A stretch of DNA of 64,000 bases from Saccharopolyspora phatthalungensis. GTDB lineage: Bacteria > Actinomycetota > Actinomycetes > Mycobacteriales > Pseudonocardiaceae. The DNA lies in the NCBI RefSeq assembly GCF_014203395.1, contig NZ_JACHIW010000002.1, positions 372,001 to 436,000 of the forward strand, read 5' to 3'. The notes under the pieces are model-generated. The model searched no databases, was not told the origin of the DNA, and saw only the letters and a program-made list of their open reading frames with translations. Position 1 is the first letter of the stretch, and each line of letters starts with the position of its first letter. A program made the translations under genes and the position numbers. Positions 32,649-43,218 of the stretch are shown in pieces.

Positions 32649-33509
32649 TCACCGCTTGCGTCCGAGGAAACAACCGGCGATCAGTGCCGCCGCGGTCACC
32701 GCCGCGCCCGCGGCGTGCCGCCACATCGACGGCAGATCGCGCGTCGTCACCACCGGGTCCGGTGGCAGCCCGTAAACCTCGGGTTCGTCCAGCAACAGGA
32801 AGAACGCGCCGTCGCCACCGACCCCGTCGGCCGGATCGTGACCGTACAACCGGGCCTCGGTGACGCCCTGTTCGTGCAACTCCGCAACGCGTTGTTCGGC
32901 CCGTTGGCGGAGTTCGTCGAGCGGGCCGTACTGGATCGACTCCGTCGGGCACGCCGTCGCGCAGGCAGGCATCAGCCCGGCGCCAAGGCGGTCCTGGCAC
33001 AGCGTGCACTTCGCCGCGCCGCCGGTGTCCGGCCGCACGTCGATCACCCCGTACGGGCAGGCGGGCACGCAATACCCGCAGCCGTTGCACACATCGTCCT
33101 GCACCAGGACCGTGCCGTACTCGGTGCGGATCAGTGCCCCCGTCGGGCACACGTCGAGGCACGCCGCATGCGTGCAGTGCTTGCAGACGTCCGAAGACAT
33201 CAACCAGCGCACCTGGTCCTCGCCCATGCCCGGCATACCGAGGTCCACAGTGGAGCCGCGCTGCTCGATGAACGCCACATGTCGCCAGGTCGTCGCGCCG
33301 AGCGCTCCGGTGTTGTCGTAGGACATCCCGGTGAGATCAAGACCGTCCTCGGGCAGCAGGTTCCACTCCTTGCAGGCGACCTCGCACGCCTTGCAGCCGA
33401 TGCAAACGCTGGTGTCGGTGAAAAACCCGGCACGTTCGGGATGCTCTGGCGGGTACCCTGCCTCCCCCGCCGGGTCGGCCAGCGGGCCGCTCAACCGGTT
33501 CAGGTCCAC
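32649..33509 (-). CDS. fdhB: formate dehydrogenase iron-sulfur (beta) subunit
   Basis: A 286-residue ferredoxin-type subunit with four [4Fe-4S] cysteine clusters: CIGCKACEVACKEWN, CKHCTHAACLDVCP, CNGCGYCVPACPYG and CTLCQDRLGAG...CATACP. It passes electrons from the catalytic subunit. A C-terminal membrane helix (AAGAAVTAAALIAGCFLG) followed by RKR should anchor it. GTG at 33507-33509 is chosen: AAGGAG lies nine bases before it, and the alpha-subunit stop (33514-33516) is four bases away. No cytochrome b (gamma) gene follows, so the quinone or other partner is not encoded here. Confidence 0.9.
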   Translation of the reverse strand: MDLNRLSGPLADPAGEAGYPPEHPERAGFFTDTSVCIGCKACEVACKEWNLLPEDGLDLTGMSYDNTGALGATTWRHVAFIEQRGSTVDLGMPGMGEDQVRWLMSSDVCKHCTHAACLDVCPTGALIRTEYGTVLVQDDVCNGCGYCVPACPYGVIDVRPDTGGAAKCTLCQDRLGAGLMPACATACPTESIQYGPLDELRQRAEQRVAELHEQGVTEARLYGHDPADGVGGDGAFFLLLDEPEVYGLPPDPVVTTRDLPSMWRHAAGAAVTAAALIAGCFLGRKR

Positions 33510-33513
33510 GACC

Positions 33514-36500
33514 TCACTCTCCTTCCCGACGCGGATCGTCGGCATGTTCCGTGCCGGTACGTTCGGTGATCCCGGCGCGCCTGCGGTACTCCTCGACATA
33601 GCGGACCAACGCCGCACCGCGCGGACGGCGGCCGGGCCGGATGTCGCAGGCGCCCGCCTTGGTATCCATGATGTGCACGTTCGGATCCAGCGCCACGTTG
33701 ATCAGTTCGTTGGCCGCGTCCCCGGCGGTCAGGCCGTTGGGGCCCCAGTGCCACGGGATGCCGATCTGGTGGATCGTGCGCTCGCCGTGGCGAAGCGACC
33801 GCATTCGGGAGGTCACCAGGACCCGGCCTTCGATGGCGCTGCGGGCGGTGACCACGGTCGCCCACTCCAGGTGCCGAAGCCCGCGTTCGGCGGCAAGTTC
33901 CGGCGAGACCTCCAGGAACATCGCCGGGGCGAGCTCGGACAGGTGCGCCAGCCACCGGCTCATCCCGCCCGCGGTGTGGTGTTCGGTGAGCCGGAAGGTG
34001 GTGAACACGTACGGGAAGACCTCGCTGCCCGGCTCGGCACCGCTGGGCTGGTACCGGTTCTCCGGCCGCGAGTACACCTGCCGCGCCGGATTCCGCTGCT
34101 GTGCGGCGTGGATCCGGTTCTCCAGCGGAGATTCCTGCGGCTCGTAGTGCGTCGGCATCGGTCCGTCGACCAGACCCGCCGGAACGTAGAGCCAGCCCCG
34201 TCCGTCGCTTTGCATGATGAACGGTTCGGTGCCCGCGATGCCCTCCGGGCCCGTGGCGTCGGGGTCGGGCACGTAGTCCGGGCGCTTGGCCTTGTCGAAA
34301 TCCGGGATGTCGTGGCCGGTCCACTCCCCCAGATCCCGGTCCCACCACACGTATGCCTTGCGGTCGCTCCACGGCCGACCGTCCGTGTCGGCCGATGCGC
34401 GGTTGTAGAGCAACCGGCGATTGGCGGGCCAGGCCCAGCCCCACTCCGGCGCGACCCACGATTGCTCCCGGCCTGGGCGCCGCCGGGCCGACTGGTTGAT
34501 GCCGTCGGCGAAAACGCCGCAGTAGATCCAGCATCCGCAACGGGTCGAACCGTCCGATCGCAACTGTGTGTAGGACGACAGCGGGTTCCCGGCGCTGTCG
34601 AAGCCGTTGATCTCCTGGAGCACGGCCGCCGCGCTCGGTTCATCGATGTCGCCCTCCGTCGGGTAATCCCAGGTCAGATCGAGCAACGCGCGGTCTCGCT
34701 CGCCGTCCGGCTTTAGCTTCTCCCGCAGCCGCCGCCCCAGGTGGTAGAAGAACCACAGATCGCTGCGCTGGTCCCCCTGCGGTTCGACGGCTTTGTGGTG
34801 CCACTGCAGCAGGCGTTGGGTGTTGGTGAAGGTGCCGTCCTTTTCCGTGTGCGCGGCGGCGGGCAGGAAGAACACCTCCGTGCCGATGTCCTCGGTGCGC
34901 ATCTCCCCGGTCTCGATCTCGGGACCGTCCCGCCAGAAGGTGGCCGTCTCGATCAGGTTGAGATCCCGCACCACCAGCCAGTCCAGGTTCGCCAGGCCCA
35001 TCCGTTGCTGGCGGGCATTCGCGGTGCCCACGGCCGGGTTCTCGCCGACGACGAAGTAGCCCTTCACCCGCCCCTCGATCTGGTCGATCACGGTCTGGAA
35101 GGTGCCGTGGTCGCCCGTCAGCCGCGGCAACCGGTCGAAGCAGAAGTCGTTGTCGGCCGTGGCGTGCTCGCCCCACCACGCCTTGAGCAGGCTCACCAGG
35201 TAGGAACGCATGTTTCCCCAGTAGCCACGGGACAATTCGTCCTGCGAGACGAACGAGTCCAGGTCGAAGTCGACATGCGCGTGCGGCATTGGGATGTAGC
35301 CCGGCAGCAGGTTGAACAGGGTCGGGATGTCGGTCGAGCCCTGGATGCTGGCGTGCCCGCGCAGCGCCAGGATTCCGCCGCCCGGCCGGCCGATGTTGCC
35401 CAGCAGCAGCTGCAGGATCGACGCGGCGCGGATGTACTGCACGCCCACGGTGTGGTGCGTCCAGCCGACTGCGTAGGCGATGGCCGTGGTGCGCTCCCGG
35501 CCCGAGTTGGCCACCAGCTGCTCGGCCACCCACCGGAATTCCTCGCGCGGCACCCCGCAGACCTGCTCCACCATCTCCGGCGTGTAGCGGGCGTAATGCC
35601 GCTTGAGCAGCTGGAACACGCAGCGCGGATGTTGCAGCGTCGGGTCGGTTTCAGGCACCCCGTGATAAACGGGCCCGCCCGCCCCGGCGCGTTCGGGGCG
35701 ACTGGTCTCGCGTTCGCGTCCGTGCAGTTTCGTCGGTGGCGCCGTCTCCAGTCCGTGGCCGCCGACCGACGGGACCGCGGTGCTGCCCTCGTACTGCCAG
35801 GTCGTCGTGTCGTAGCTGCCGACCTCGGCATCGAAGCCGGAGAAGACGCCGTCGAGGTCCTCGGTGTCGCGGAAGTCCTCGCCGACGATCATCGAGGCGT
35901 TGGTATAGGCCACGACGTAGTCGCGGAAGTAGGCGTCATTGGTCAGCACGTGGTTGATCAGCGCGCCAAGGAACGCGATGTCGCTGCCCGCGCGCAGGGC
36001 GACGTGCCGGTGCGCCAGCGCCGAGGTGCGGGTGAACCGCGGGTCGACGTGGATGATCGTGGCGCCGCGCCGCTTGGCTTCCATCACCCACTGGAAACCG
36101 ACCGGGTGCGCCTCGGCCATGTTGGACCCCTGGATGAGGATGCAGTCGGCATTGGCGAGGTCCTGCTGGAACGTGGTGGCGCCGCCGCGACCGAACGAGG
36201 TGCCCAGACCGGGCACCGTGGAGGAGTGTCAAATGCGGGCCTGGTTCTCCACCTGGATCGCACCGAGGGCGGTGTAGAGCTTCTTCATGAGGTAGTTCTC
36301 CTCGTTGTCGAGGGTCGCTCCTCCGAGGCTCGCGATGCCCATCGTTCGCCGCAGCGGTCGGCCGTCGGCGTCGGTGTCCTGCCAGGTGGCGGCCCGGGTG
36401 GCCAGCACCCGGTCGGCGATCATGTCCACCGCGGTGCCGAGGTCCAGGTCCTCCCATTCGGTGCCGTGCGGACGGCGATACCGAACCTTGGTCTGCCGCA

Positions 36501-36789
36501 GCGGTGAACTCACCAGTTCGCGGCTGGCCGAGCCCTTCGGGCACAGCCGGCCCCGGCTGATCGGCGAATCGGGATCGCCCTCGATCTGGGTGACCTTCCC
36601 GTTCTGGACGAAGACCCGCTGACCGCAGCCCACCGCGCAGTACGGGCACACCGACGCAACCACGGCGTCGGCGTCCTCGGTGCGCGACCGCCGAGCATCG
36701 GTGCGCCGGGAGCGGGCCGCCGGGCCCCTGCCCAGCGGATCCGTCCCGGTCAGCTGGCGCACCACCGGCCAACGCAGCCACTCGACCAT
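33514..36789 (-). CDS. fdhA: selenocysteine-containing formate dehydrogenase, catalytic (alpha) subunit
   Basis: A molybdopterin (bis-MGD) oxidoreductase of 1091 residues when the in-frame TGA at 36229-36231 is read as selenocysteine. The N-terminal [4Fe-4S] motif is CPYCAVGCG...GRLCPKG. The active site reads NQARI-Sec-HSSTVPGLG, matching NQARV-Sec-H of E. coli FdnG. The frame is the same before and after TGA, and family text continues without loss (FGRGGATTFQQDLANADC, GGNIL-type MGD-binding stretches, C-terminal dinucleotide-binding domain). Start ATG at 36787-36789. No twin-arginine signal is seen, so it is probably cytoplasmic-facing. It oxidises formate or, in reverse, reduces CO2. Automated callers will split it into 186 + 900 residues. 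Confidence 0.9.
36199..36231 (-). promoter_or_regulatory. Sec UGA codon and bacterial SECIS hairpin
   Basis: UGA (36231-36229) is followed after 11 bases by GGTGCCC-GGTCT-GGGCACC, a perfect 7-bp stem with loop GGUCU. The E. coli fdhF SECIS loop contains the same GGUCU that SelB binds. Distance and loop fit a bSECIS. Confidence 0.85.
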
Positions 36790-39066: not shown

Positions 39067-40356
39067 ATGGCCGATCCGCGCCAGCTTGTACCGGGCACCG
39101 ACCGGGTACTGGCCGATCCAGAGGTGGCTGCCGCGACCGCGCGCCTGGGCCACCAGTTGGTCAAGCATGCGGTGCATGCAGCGCAGGAACGCGCTCGCAA
39201 CGGCGAAATCGAGCCTGCCCGGGTTGTCGCGGAAACCCTGGCCGCACTGCCGGATTCTGCGTCGAGCATCCGGCCCGTGCTCAATGCGACCGGCGTTCTG
39301 CTGCACACCAATCTCGGTCGTGCACCGTTGTCGGACGCGGCGATCCACGCGTTGCGCGAGGCCGCCGGAACTACGAACGTGGAACTCGACCTGCATACCG
39401 GCCGACGCGGCCCACGCGGTGCGGCCGCCATCGCCGCGCTGCTGGCCGCCGTGCCAGGCGCAGAAGCCGCGCACGTGGTCAACAACGGCGCCGCAGCGCT
39501 TTCCCTGGCGGCGACCGCGCTCGCACAAGGTCGCGAAATCGTGCTGGCGCGCGGCGAAATGGTCGAGATCGGTGACGGGTTCCGCATTCCCGAACTGCTC
39601 AGCGCCACCGGCGCTCGACTTCGCGAGGTCGGGACCACCAACCGGGTCCGGCTCGACGACTACCGGCAAGCGTTGAACACGAACACCGGCTTCGTCCTCA
39701 AGGTGCACCCGTCGAACTTCGTGATCAGCGGTTTCACCGCTTCCGTGCCCGTCTCCGCACTGCGTGACCTCGGGGTGCCCGTGGTGGTCGACATCGGTTC
39801 GGGGTTGCTGCACCCGCATCCGGTGCTACCGCAAGAGCCGGACGCGACCACGACTCTTGCCGACGGAGCGGATCTGGTCATCGCCAGCGGCGACAAGCTG
39901 CTCGGCGGCCCGCAGGCAGGACTGTTGCTGGGCGGCCGCGAGCTCGTGCACCGCCTGCGGCGCCACCCACTAGCCCGCGCGATGCGTGTCGACAAGCTCA
40001 CGCTCGCCGCCTTGGAAGCCACCGTGCGCGGCCCGAGCACGCCGACCGCGCGGCAGCTTCAACAGGATCAAGCCGATCTCCTGCGCCGCGCCGAGCGGCT
40101 CGCCGATGCGCTCAACGCGGTCGGCATCCCAGCCTCCGCGCAGTGCAGCGAGGCAACCGTCGGTGGCGGCGGCGCCCCCGGCATCGCACTGCGCAGCGCG
40201 GCGGTCGCGCTGCCCGAACGCTTCGCGAAGCTGCTGCGTGAAGGACGCCCTCCTGTCCTCGCACGCACCGAACGCGATCGCTGCCTGCTGGATCTGGCCG
40301 CGCTCGCGCCCGAACACGACGACGACCTGAGACACGCGGTGCTGGCGGTGGACTGA
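39067..40356 (+). CDS. selA: L-seryl-tRNA(Sec) selenium transferase SelA
   Basis: A 429-residue PLP enzyme that turns Ser-tRNA(Sec) into Sec-tRNA(Sec) with selenophosphate. Motifs: LNATGVLLHTNLGRAPLS, TTNVELDLHTGRRGPRG, HVVNNGAAALSLAATALA, and the PLP lysine in IASGDKLLGGPQAG (about residue 278). Length is normal for the decameric bacterial enzyme. The stop overlaps the selB ATG by one base (TGATG), so the two are translated together. It serves the selenocysteine codon in fdhA on the opposite strand. Confidence 0.95.
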   Translation: MADPRQLVPGTDRVLADPEVAAATARLGHQLVKHAVHAAQERARNGEIEPARVVAETLAALPDSASSIRPVLNATGVLLHTNLGRAPLSDAAIHALREAAGTTNVELDLHTGRRGPRGAAAIAALLAAVPGAEAAHVVNNGAAALSLAATALAQGREIVLARGEMVEIGDGFRIPELLSATGARLREVGTTNRVRLDDYRQALNTNTGFVLKVHPSNFVISGFTASVPVSALRDLGVPVVVDIGSGLLHPHPVLPQEPDATTTLADGADLVIASGDKLLGGPQAGLLLGGRELVHRLRRHPLARAMRVDKLTLAALEATVRGPSTPTARQLQQDQADLLRRAERLADALNAVGIPASAQCSEATVGGGGAPGIALRSAAVALPERFAKLLREGRPPVLARTERDRCLLDLAALAPEHDDDLRHAVLAVD

Positions 40357-42173
40357 TGCACGTCATCGCCACCGCCGGGCACGTGGATCACGGCAAGTCC
40401 ACGCTGATCCGCATGCTCACCGGGATGGAGCCGGATCGCTGGGCCGAAGAACGCCGTCGGGGCCTGACCATCGACCTCGGCTTCGCGTGGATGCGGCTAC
40501 CCGACGGCTGCACCGCGGCCTTCGTCGATGTGCCGGGTCACGAGCGCTTCGTGCCCAACATGCTGGCCGGGATCGGCCCGGTCCCCGCAGTGCTGTTCGT
40601 GGTCGCCGCCGATGAAGGCTGGATGCCGCAATCCGCCGAGCACCTGGACGCCTTGGCCGCCCTCGGAGTGCGGCACGGCCTGCTCGCCGTTACCCGCTGC
40701 GATCTGGCCGATCCCCGGCCCGCCACCGAACAAGCGCGCGAACGGCTCCGCGAAACCACGCTGGCCGACATCCCAGTGGTGCACGTCAGCGGGCGCACCG
40801 GCGCCGGTCTCGACGAGCTGCGGCACGAGATCGACGCGCTCCTTCACCGGCTGCCGGCGGCGGAGCGGGCTGCCGATGTGCGGCTTTGGGTCGATCGTGC
40901 GTTCACCATTCACGGTGCCGGAACGGTCGTGACCGGAACCCTCTCGGCGGGCACCCTCCGCAAGGATGACCGTCTGCACCTGCACCCCGCCGACGCTGAG
41001 GTGACGGTTCGCGGCCTCCAGGCGCTCGGATCGTCCGAACCGCAGATCGGCGCCGTCGCGCGAGTCGCGGTCAACCTCCGCGGTGTGGACCTCGACCAGG
41101 TGCGGCGTGGCGACGCATTGCTGACCCCGGACCGTTGGCTGACCACGGATGCCCTCGACGTCCGGATTCATCGGGCGATTTCAAGGGAAACGAACGCGGC
41201 GATTTCCATGGAAATCGCCGCGGAATTGATGTTCCACATCGGCGCGGCGGCGGTCAAGGCGCGCGTGCGGCCGCTCGGCCACGACACCGCGCGACTCACC
41301 TTGCGCACCCCGCTGCCCCTACGCATCGGCGACCGGGCGCTGCTCCGCGATCCGGGAAGTCGGCGGGTCTGCGGTGGACTGGTGGTGCTCGACGTCCGCC
41401 CACCGCCGCTGGCCAGGCGTGGCGCTGCCCGCGCGCGGGCAGCCGAACTGGACACCATGGACGGACGGCCGGACGGCGTGGCCGAGCTTCGCCGACGCCG
41501 GCTGATCAGGGCCGATGAATTGCGTGCGATGGGCGCGACACCGCCGGGACCCGGGCAGTGGCTGGTGGACGAAGCGCACCGTGACGAGCTCGGCAATCGG
41601 CTCAAGGGATTGCTGGACCAACATCAGCGGACACACCCGCTAGCGAACGGCATGCCCGCCGAAGCAGCGCGCCGCGCGCTGCAACTACCCGATCTCGCGC
41701 TGCTGCCCATGATCGCGCATGCCGCCGGGGTTTCCATGCGGGACGGAAGGCTCCACAAGGGGCACGCAGCGCTGCCCGAACACGTGGAGCGCGCAGTGGA
41801 GGCGATTCGGCGGGCACTCATCGACCACCCGTTCCAAGCCCCAACCGCCGAGGACCTCGCCGAACTCGGCATCGGGGACAAGGAACTCGCCGCCGCCGCG
41901 CGCACCGGAGCTCTTCTTCGCTTGGCGCCCGGCCTAGTGCTCTTGCCGGACGCCGAGGAGTCCGCCGTGGCGCGCCTGGTGCTGCTGCCCGAGCCGTTCA
42001 CCCTCAGCCAAGCCAGGCAGGCACTGGACACTTCGCGTCGCGTTGCGGTTCCCTTGCTTGAACTGCTCGCTCGCCACGGCCGCACGCGGCGGCTACCCGA
42101 TGGCACCCATCGCGTTGTTTCTCCACCCCCAGCGCCGGGAAATACCGAGGACAACCCGACGCCACGGCGATGA
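40356..42173 (+). CDS. selB: selenocysteine-specific elongation factor SelB
   Basis: A 605-residue EF-Tu-like GTPase that brings Sec-tRNA to UGA when bound to the SECIS hairpin. G1 is GHVDHGKSTLIRMLTG, G3 DVPGHERFVPNML, and the G4 position reads TRCDLAD. Domains 2-3 lead into four C-terminal winged helices (about 370-605) that bind SECIS RNA. Length matches E. coli SelB (614). Odd: codons ~275-290 (ETNAAISMEIAAE) are built from a 28-base perfect palindrome and look like an in-frame insertion. Confidence 0.94.
   Translation: MHVIATAGHVDHGKSTLIRMLTGMEPDRWAEERRRGLTIDLGFAWMRLPDGCTAAFVDVPGHERFVPNMLAGIGPVPAVLFVVAADEGWMPQSAEHLDALAALGVRHGLLAVTRCDLADPRPATEQARERLRETTLADIPVVHVSGRTGAGLDELRHEIDALLHRLPAAERAADVRLWVDRAFTIHGAGTVVTGTLSAGTLRKDDRLHLHPADAEVTVRGLQALGSSEPQIGAVARVAVNLRGVDLDQVRRGDALLTPDRWLTTDALDVRIHRAISRETNAAISMEIAAELMFHIGAAAVKARVRPLGHDTARLTLRTPLPLRIGDRALLRDPGSRRVCGGLVVLDVRPPPLARRGAARARAAELDTMDGRPDGVAELRRRRLIRADELRAMGATPPGPGQWLVDEAHRDELGNRLKGLLDQHQRTHPLANGMPAEAARRALQLPDLALLPMIAHAAGVSMRDGRLHKGHAALPEHVERAVEAIRRALIDHPFQAPTAEDLAELGIGDKELAAAARTGALLRLAPGLVLLPDAEESAVARLVLLPEPFTLSQARQALDTSRRVAVPLLELLARHGRTRRLPDGTHRVVSPPPAPGNTEDNPTPRR
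41195..41222. repeat. 28-bp perfect palindrome inside selB
   Basis: Half-site CGCGGCGATTTCCA is followed exactly by its complement. A partial copy of the half-site (GGGCGATTTCAAGG) lies at 41173-41186. The same GGCGATTTC core forms the stem of the hairpin at 63621-63665. It looks like a dispersed REP-like repeat. Confidence 0.65.
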
Positions 42174-42252: not shown

Positions 42253-43218
42253 ATGCCGCGGAAGATCTGGACCGGCTCGATCAACTTCGGTCTGGTCACC
42301 ATCCCGGTCGGGCTCTACGCCGCGACCGAGGACCACACCATCCAATTCCACCAGTACGAGCGCGGGACCGCCGACCGGATCCGCTACAAGCGGGTCAACG
42401 AGCGCACCGGCAAGGAAGTCGGCTACAACGACATCGTCAAGGGCCGCGAGTCCGATGGCATGATCATCACCGTGGAGCCGTCCGAACTCGACGAGATCGC
42501 CCCCGGCCGCTCCCGCACGATCGACATCGCCACGTTCGTCGATATCTCCGAGATCGACCCGGTGTTCTTCCAGAAGACCTACTGGCTGGCGCCCAACAGC
42601 AAGGAGCACTTCCGGCCCTACAACCTGTTGCGCGAGGCGATGCGCGAAACCAGCCAGGCGGGGATCGCGACCTTCGTGCTCCGCGGCAAGCAGTACCTCA
42701 CCGCGGTGCGCGCCGACGACGACGTGCTGGCGCTGAACACGCTCTACTTCGAGGACGAAATTCGCGACCCCCGCGAGCTGGTTGGCGAGGGCCCCGAGCA
42801 GGTGACGCCGTCGGACAAGGAATTGCAGATGGCGACCACGATCATCGAGTCGATGAGCGGGCCGTGGGAGCCCGAGCAGTACGAGGACACCTACGCCGCG
42901 AGGGTCGAGGAGTTGCTGGCGGAGAAGGCGCGCGGCGGCGAGGTGAAGGCCGCGGAGGCACCCCCGCAACCGACCGACGTCATCGATCTCACCGAGGCGC
43001 TGCGTCGCAGCGTTGACGAGGCCCGCAAGGGCCGCAAGCCCAAGCGCGCCGAAGAGGACCTGTCGGAGCTGAGCAAGGCCGAACTCGACGACCGGGCCAA
43101 GCAGCTGGGGATCAAGGGCCGGTCCAAAATGAAGCGAGCCGAACTCGAAGAAGCCGTCGCGGCCGCCACCCAAAAACCCACCGGCACCGCGGGCCGCCGC
43201 TCCCGCCGAGCGTCCTGA
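42253..43218 (+). CDS. ku: Ku protein (non-homologous end joining)
   Basis: A 321-residue bacterial Ku that forms a ring on DNA ends and recruits ligase LigD. The core runs from IWTGSINFGLVTIPVGLY through RYKRVNERTGKEV, ELDEIAPGRSRTIDI and FFQKTYWLAP to MATTIIESMSGPWEPEQY. The C-terminal extension is acidic then basic and includes a Rho-N/SAP-like helix pair (LSKAELDDRAKQLGIKGRSK). LigD is not in the window. Start ATG at 42253 after GGGAGG. Confidence 0.95.
   Translation: MPRKIWTGSINFGLVTIPVGLYAATEDHTIQFHQYERGTADRIRYKRVNERTGKEVGYNDIVKGRESDGMIITVEPSELDEIAPGRSRTIDIATFVDISEIDPVFFQKTYWLAPNSKEHFRPYNLLREAMRETSQAGIATFVLRGKQYLTAVRADDDVLALNTLYFEDEIRDPRELVGEGPEQVTPSDKELQMATTIIESMSGPWEPEQYEDTYAARVEELLAEKARGGEVKAAEAPPQPTDVIDLTEALRRSVDEARKGRKPKRAEEDLSELSKAELDDRAKQLGIKGRSKMKRAELEEAVAAATQKPTGTAGRRSRRAS

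Follow-up and report, generated by a model that had tools for sequence, protein, structure and literature searches.

The bacterial SECIS element is a stem-loop that lies at a short fixed distance after a UGA codon and carries GU in its apical loop. In fdhF of Escherichia coli, which encodes formate dehydrogenase H, the UGA is followed by an 11-nt linker, a stem and a GGTCT loop. Formate dehydrogenase alpha heads the bacterial selenoprotein table of one published account, with 1276 in 822 organisms, and is named there with SelD as the most widespread of the bacterial selenoproteins (PMC5029168). A variant that uses UAG for formate dehydrogenase and other selenoproteins is mentioned for the Geodermatophilaceae in section 17 of PMC5330540, citing its reference 56. 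Here we compare with these systems a locus from Saccharopolyspora phatthalungensis, found in a stretch of 64,000 nucleotides (the window; contig NZ_JACHIW010000002.1 of GCF_014203395.1, positions 372,001 to 436,000). Its fdhA gene almost certainly encodes a molybdopterin formate dehydrogenase with an active-site selenocysteine (Sec), inserted at an in-frame UGA by means of a SECIS hairpin.

Table 1. Features of the fdhA locus and of the genes for Sec decoding (window positions, except where contig C3 is given)
Feature	Position	Strand	Details
fdhA, formate dehydrogenase alpha subunit	33514..36789	minus	1091 residues, Sec at 187, then UGA stop; ATG at 36789, stop ending at 33514; one frame bar the UGA; NF041513
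In-frame UGA, residue 187, read as selenocysteine	36229..36231	minus	frame reading; alignment with X (Sec) of 8cm4 and with relatives
Linker, 11 nt	36218..36228	minus	
Bacterial SECIS stem-loop GGTGCCC-GGTCT-GGGCACC	36199..36217	minus	starts 11 nt after UGA; sequence, covariation, conservation in relatives
5' arm GGTGCCC	36211..36217	minus	
Loop GGTCT	36206..36210	minus	
3' arm GGGCACC	36199..36205	minus	
fdhB, probable iron-sulphur subunit of formate dehydrogenase	32649..33617	minus	overlaps fdhA end; best family FDH-beta TIGR01582; Fer4 domains
selA, L-seryl-tRNA(Sec) selenium transferase	39067..40356	plus	TIGR00474, 417.7 bits (cut-off 267.9)
selB, Sec-specific elongation factor	40356..42173	plus	TIGR00475, 276.8 bits (cut-off 242.25); SelB-wing_3 PF09107 winged-helix domain
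Ku (NHEJ) gene	42253..43218		directly after selB
selD	C3:53867..54775		389 bits; adjoins tRNA-Sec
tRNA-Sec	C3:54835..54926		77.4 bits; anticodon TCA (UCA)

The UGA is the sole interruption of the fdhA frame, which is identical on both sides of it, between the flanks NQARI and HSSTV. Read through, the protein matches NF041513 (formate_DH_Act) over residues 5-1071 with 1968.6 bits (cut-off 1400) and TIGR01553 (formate-DH-alph) with 923.9 bits (cut-off 814.2), and it contains an Fe4S4 domain (PF04879) and molybdopterin domains (PF00384 and PF01568). The homology spans the UGA in a single frame, as expected of a Sec-containing formate dehydrogenase alpha subunit. Both halves align to the selenocysteine-containing FdhA of 8cm4, a solved formate dehydrogenase, and residue 187 falls opposite its X (Sec); the 9qm0 chain, also named selenocysteine-containing, shows C at this place, either as a variant or as a way of writing Sec. 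Thus two claims of a preliminary description of this DNA, that the stop sits at the Sec site of FdnG-type enzymes and that the frame is unchanged across it, were borne out by the alignment and by reading the minus strand. So was its warning that a standard gene caller would report two truncated genes: the listing of open reading frames splits fdhA into 36229-36789 (186 aa) and 33514-36216 (900 aa, GTG start).

Within NF041513, whose members have UGA, UAG or Cys at the site, the window enzyme shows no notable difference. With TIGR01553 over its cut-off it is nearer the FDH-N type than the formate dehydrogenase H of fdhF, and E. coli FdnG (1kqf) is among its matches. Unlike FdnG, and unlike 8cm4 and its relatives, FdhA has no strongly hydrophobic N-terminal stretch (a Tat-like signal) in a simple hydropathy scan, and no gamma (cytochrome b) gene was found among the neighbouring open reading frames tested by family and domain search. 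The fdhB product contains Fer4 domains and scores 174.9 bits with its best family, below the cut-off of 334.7. The nearest named relatives belong to Saccharopolyspora, with the best segment of S. elongata 93% identical. Compared with a locus of the same genus (L067), dN/dS is about 0.16 before the UGA (dN 0.040, dS 0.257) and about 0.10 after it (dN 0.037, dS 0.386), a sign of purifying selection on both parts of the protein.

The hairpin that follows has the short spacing and the GU of a bacterial SECIS element, and the perfect 7-bp stem, GGUCU loop and 11-base distance given in the preliminary description are correct to the base. The loop is, as was also claimed, that of E. coli fdhF, and the fdhF locus has the same 11-nt linker. 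The two differ in that the window stem consists of 7 continuous pairs and in the residue at +6 from the Sec site, which is Pro in the window and Ala in fdhF. With an E limit of 10, a SECIS covariance model trained on formate dehydrogenase hairpins did not match fdhF; what the window hairpin and that of fdhF share is thus layout and loop and not overall sequence. When the window was scanned on both strands for a TGA with a linker of 8-15 nt, a perfect stem of 6-8 bp and any of five loops, this place alone was found; no tRNA and, at gathering cut-offs, no Rfam family was matched anywhere in the window.

By itself, the hairpin is modest evidence for a SECIS element. When the downstream peptide was recoded synonymously 200,000 times with the local codon usage, a 7-pair stem arose at the same place in 7.3% of the sequences, with a.GTCT loop in 0.77%, and anywhere nearby in 17%. 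Folding energy was rejected as evidence, since recodings and shuffles equal it: the fraction of recodings with an energy as low was 0.51, and the shuffles gave an unexceptional z of -0.48. What raises the hairpin above chance is its conservation among relatives.

This conservation was followed in 111 loci, made up of the window, 30 loci from a survey of 200 genomes of the family, and the best 80 of 590 confirmed relatives, a non-random choice; some loci are probably the same species twice, and the distinct 150-nt stretches number 86 with TGA, 4 with TAG and 10 with TGC. The motif is present in all 111, and the Sec-site codon is TGA in 96, TAG in 4 and TGC in 11. With GT pairs allowed, the TGA loci have 6 contiguous pairs (45 loci) or 7 (51), and their loops read GGTCT (64), AGTCT (17) or AGTTT (15), while all four TAG loci combine 7 pairs with a GGTCT loop. 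The 11 TGC loci, which encode Cys, have 0 contiguous pairs (8) or 2 (3). The hairpin is thus kept in all 100 UGA or UAG loci and lost in every one of the 11 with Cys, a comparison that settles the matter. The TAG loci come from Blastococcus (L109, L126, L129) and Geodermatophilus (L114) and fit the UAG report for Geodermatophilaceae (PMC5330540); they share enzyme family and intact hairpin with the window, whose genome, in contrast, uses UGA and a UCA anticodon.

Covariation points the same way, and it rests mainly on one pair. Forty-two of the 96 TGA sequences, 40 of them distinct, were aligned. Pairing was present in 93.6% of cells, compared with 89.1% after shuffling and at most 67.1% when the alignment was slid. 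None of 500 shuffles attained the covariation score of 0.205 (shuffled mean 0.106) or the count of 18 cells changed on both sides (1.8 in shuffles). The two-sided changes are confined to a single pair, in 18 of 40 rows, and three pairs are invariant. At least as many pairs, one, change on both sides in 240 of 500 shuffles, and 188 of 500 give at least as many further types of pair. Since 18 of the 40 distinct relatives lack the outermost pair (columns 15-33), the shared stem is one of 6 bp. Under the covariance model the window, a member of the training set, scores 73.9 bits; the scores are 60.0-62.9 for the TAG loci and fall to 20.1-36.9 for the 11 Cys loci.

The machinery for decoding is divided between two places in the genome, which comprises 8,541,735 bases in 6 contigs. 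In the window, selA and selB are divergent from fdhA and lie 2.3-5.4 kb from its start, in agreement with the distance of less than 6 kb noted before. Scans for tRNA and Rfam families and a search of the whole genome for selD place neither tRNA-Sec nor selD in the window; they adjoin each other on another contig, and the preliminary description, which had made its reading depend on the presence of both in the genome, stands on this point. The selD frame is open, with a Cys in a GGGCACK stretch that we take to be the catalytic place. The genome therefore has all four genes of the bacterial Sec-decoding trait: selA, selB, selD and tRNA-Sec.

By analogy with the established E. coli system, tRNA-Sec would first be charged with serine, and SelA would convert the seryl-tRNA-Sec using selenophosphate made by SelD. 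SelB-GTP carrying Sec-tRNA-Sec, with its UCA anticodon, would then bind the hairpin in the mRNA, 11 nt downstream of the UGA, and Sec would be inserted at this codon in place of termination by a release factor. On the sequence evidence, the organism is predicted to produce a Sec-containing enzyme, which would oxidise formate. The central claim of the preliminary description, that this formate dehydrogenase is a selenoprotein, is thus supported by the site, its conservation and the Sec genes, although the lone hairpin, given how often recodings yield it, is weaker evidence than had been thought.

Two other explanations have to be weighed. The UGA might be read through in some other way, by a near-cognate tRNA that gives Trp or Cys, or it might be a regulated stop that yields the 186-residue fragment as a separate product. 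Both are compatible with the sequence, and some termination at Sec codons is expected when selenium is short, but the four Sec genes of the genome, the SECIS of E. coli fdhF layout after the UGA and the presence of Sec at this place in a solved homologue make this very improbable. That the UGA is a premature stop, real in a decayed gene or an artefact of sequencing, is less probable still: a stop codon does sit in the fdhA frame, and one genome of the same genus (G129:C1:3518198-3522772) has a broken enzyme copy in two separate pieces with an extra TAG, its tRNA-Sec retained, but a TGA lies inside the gene in all 22 genomes of the genus that were searched, 96 of the 111 loci have it at this very codon, selection is purifying after it, and the hairpin is kept only where the codon is UGA or UAG.

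Within the genus the same combination recurs: in 22 of 22 genomes searched, a tRNA-Sec over the cut-off accompanies a TGA inside the enzyme gene, and in the eight fetched loci of named Saccharopolyspora (L058-L064, L067) the TGA is at the Sec site in every case. In the family, NF041513 is over its cut-off in 123 of 200 genomes, which were sorted by hand into 108 with TGA, 6 with the gene in pieces and 9 without a stop (the Cys form); the position was checked in the 30 fetched loci, with 21 TGA and 9 TGC. Counted without regard to kinship, tRNA-Sec is over its cut-off in 107 of the 108 TGA-type genomes, in all 6 with the gene in pieces and in 2 of the 9 with the Cys form (G031, G115). The one TGA-type genome lacking it (G138) is 87% complete.

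A further 23 of the 200 genomes have a tRNA-Sec over the cut-off and no NF041513 match over its own (for example G016, G034, G055, G068, G078, G086, G096, G105, G108, G119, G125 and G167). Three of them (G028, G130, G185) were set aside for weaker or fragmentary formate dehydrogenase matches. The remaining 20 all have selA, and 3 have UGSC proteins, two with a TGA. For ten of these relatives the 18-20 kb around selA was scanned, and five candidate in-frame TGAs came up, of which one is plausible by eye: a minus-strand frame with one TGA around position 12985 of L190 (G073), in the context GSFTUPYC, thioredoxin-fold or deiodinase-like in appearance.

The search for further selenoproteins in the S. 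phatthalungensis genome yielded no second convincing site. The SECIS model, which was trained on formate dehydrogenase hairpins including that of the window and which unlike SECIS elements would escape, found a single strong site, at E 3.4e-12; the three that follow have E 2.4-3.1. UGSC-type selenoproteins gave no match in a search whose control was silent, though the same model does detect such proteins in 3 of 22 relatives. A second apparent formate dehydrogenase with a TGA, on contig C3 (231407-235213), was rejected, as its TGA precedes the start codon and Cys occupies the site (SRLCMAS); this nitrate-reductase- or formate-dehydrogenase-like gene has an in-frame TAG and looks decayed.

The residue at +6 from the Sec site is Pro in all 100 UGA or UAG loci and Ala (7), Val (3) or Ile (1) in the 11 Cys loci; an arm of the SECIS seems to fix the codon at this place. 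We speculate, with rather more doubt than confidence, that the genus keeps a two-locus Sec system for a single selenoprotein, and that the Pro codon at +6 is imposed by the RNA hairpin rather than by the enzyme. The split of the Sec genes between distant loci is a fact of the S. phatthalungensis genome and may extend to the rest of the genus.

The system in the window adds another instance to a kind already catalogued, correctly recognised but ordinary. For annotation it matters in that a naive gene caller halves the enzyme and loses its active-site residue. Biologically, the locus repeats the textbook system, and the enzyme would need selenium in order to oxidise formate.
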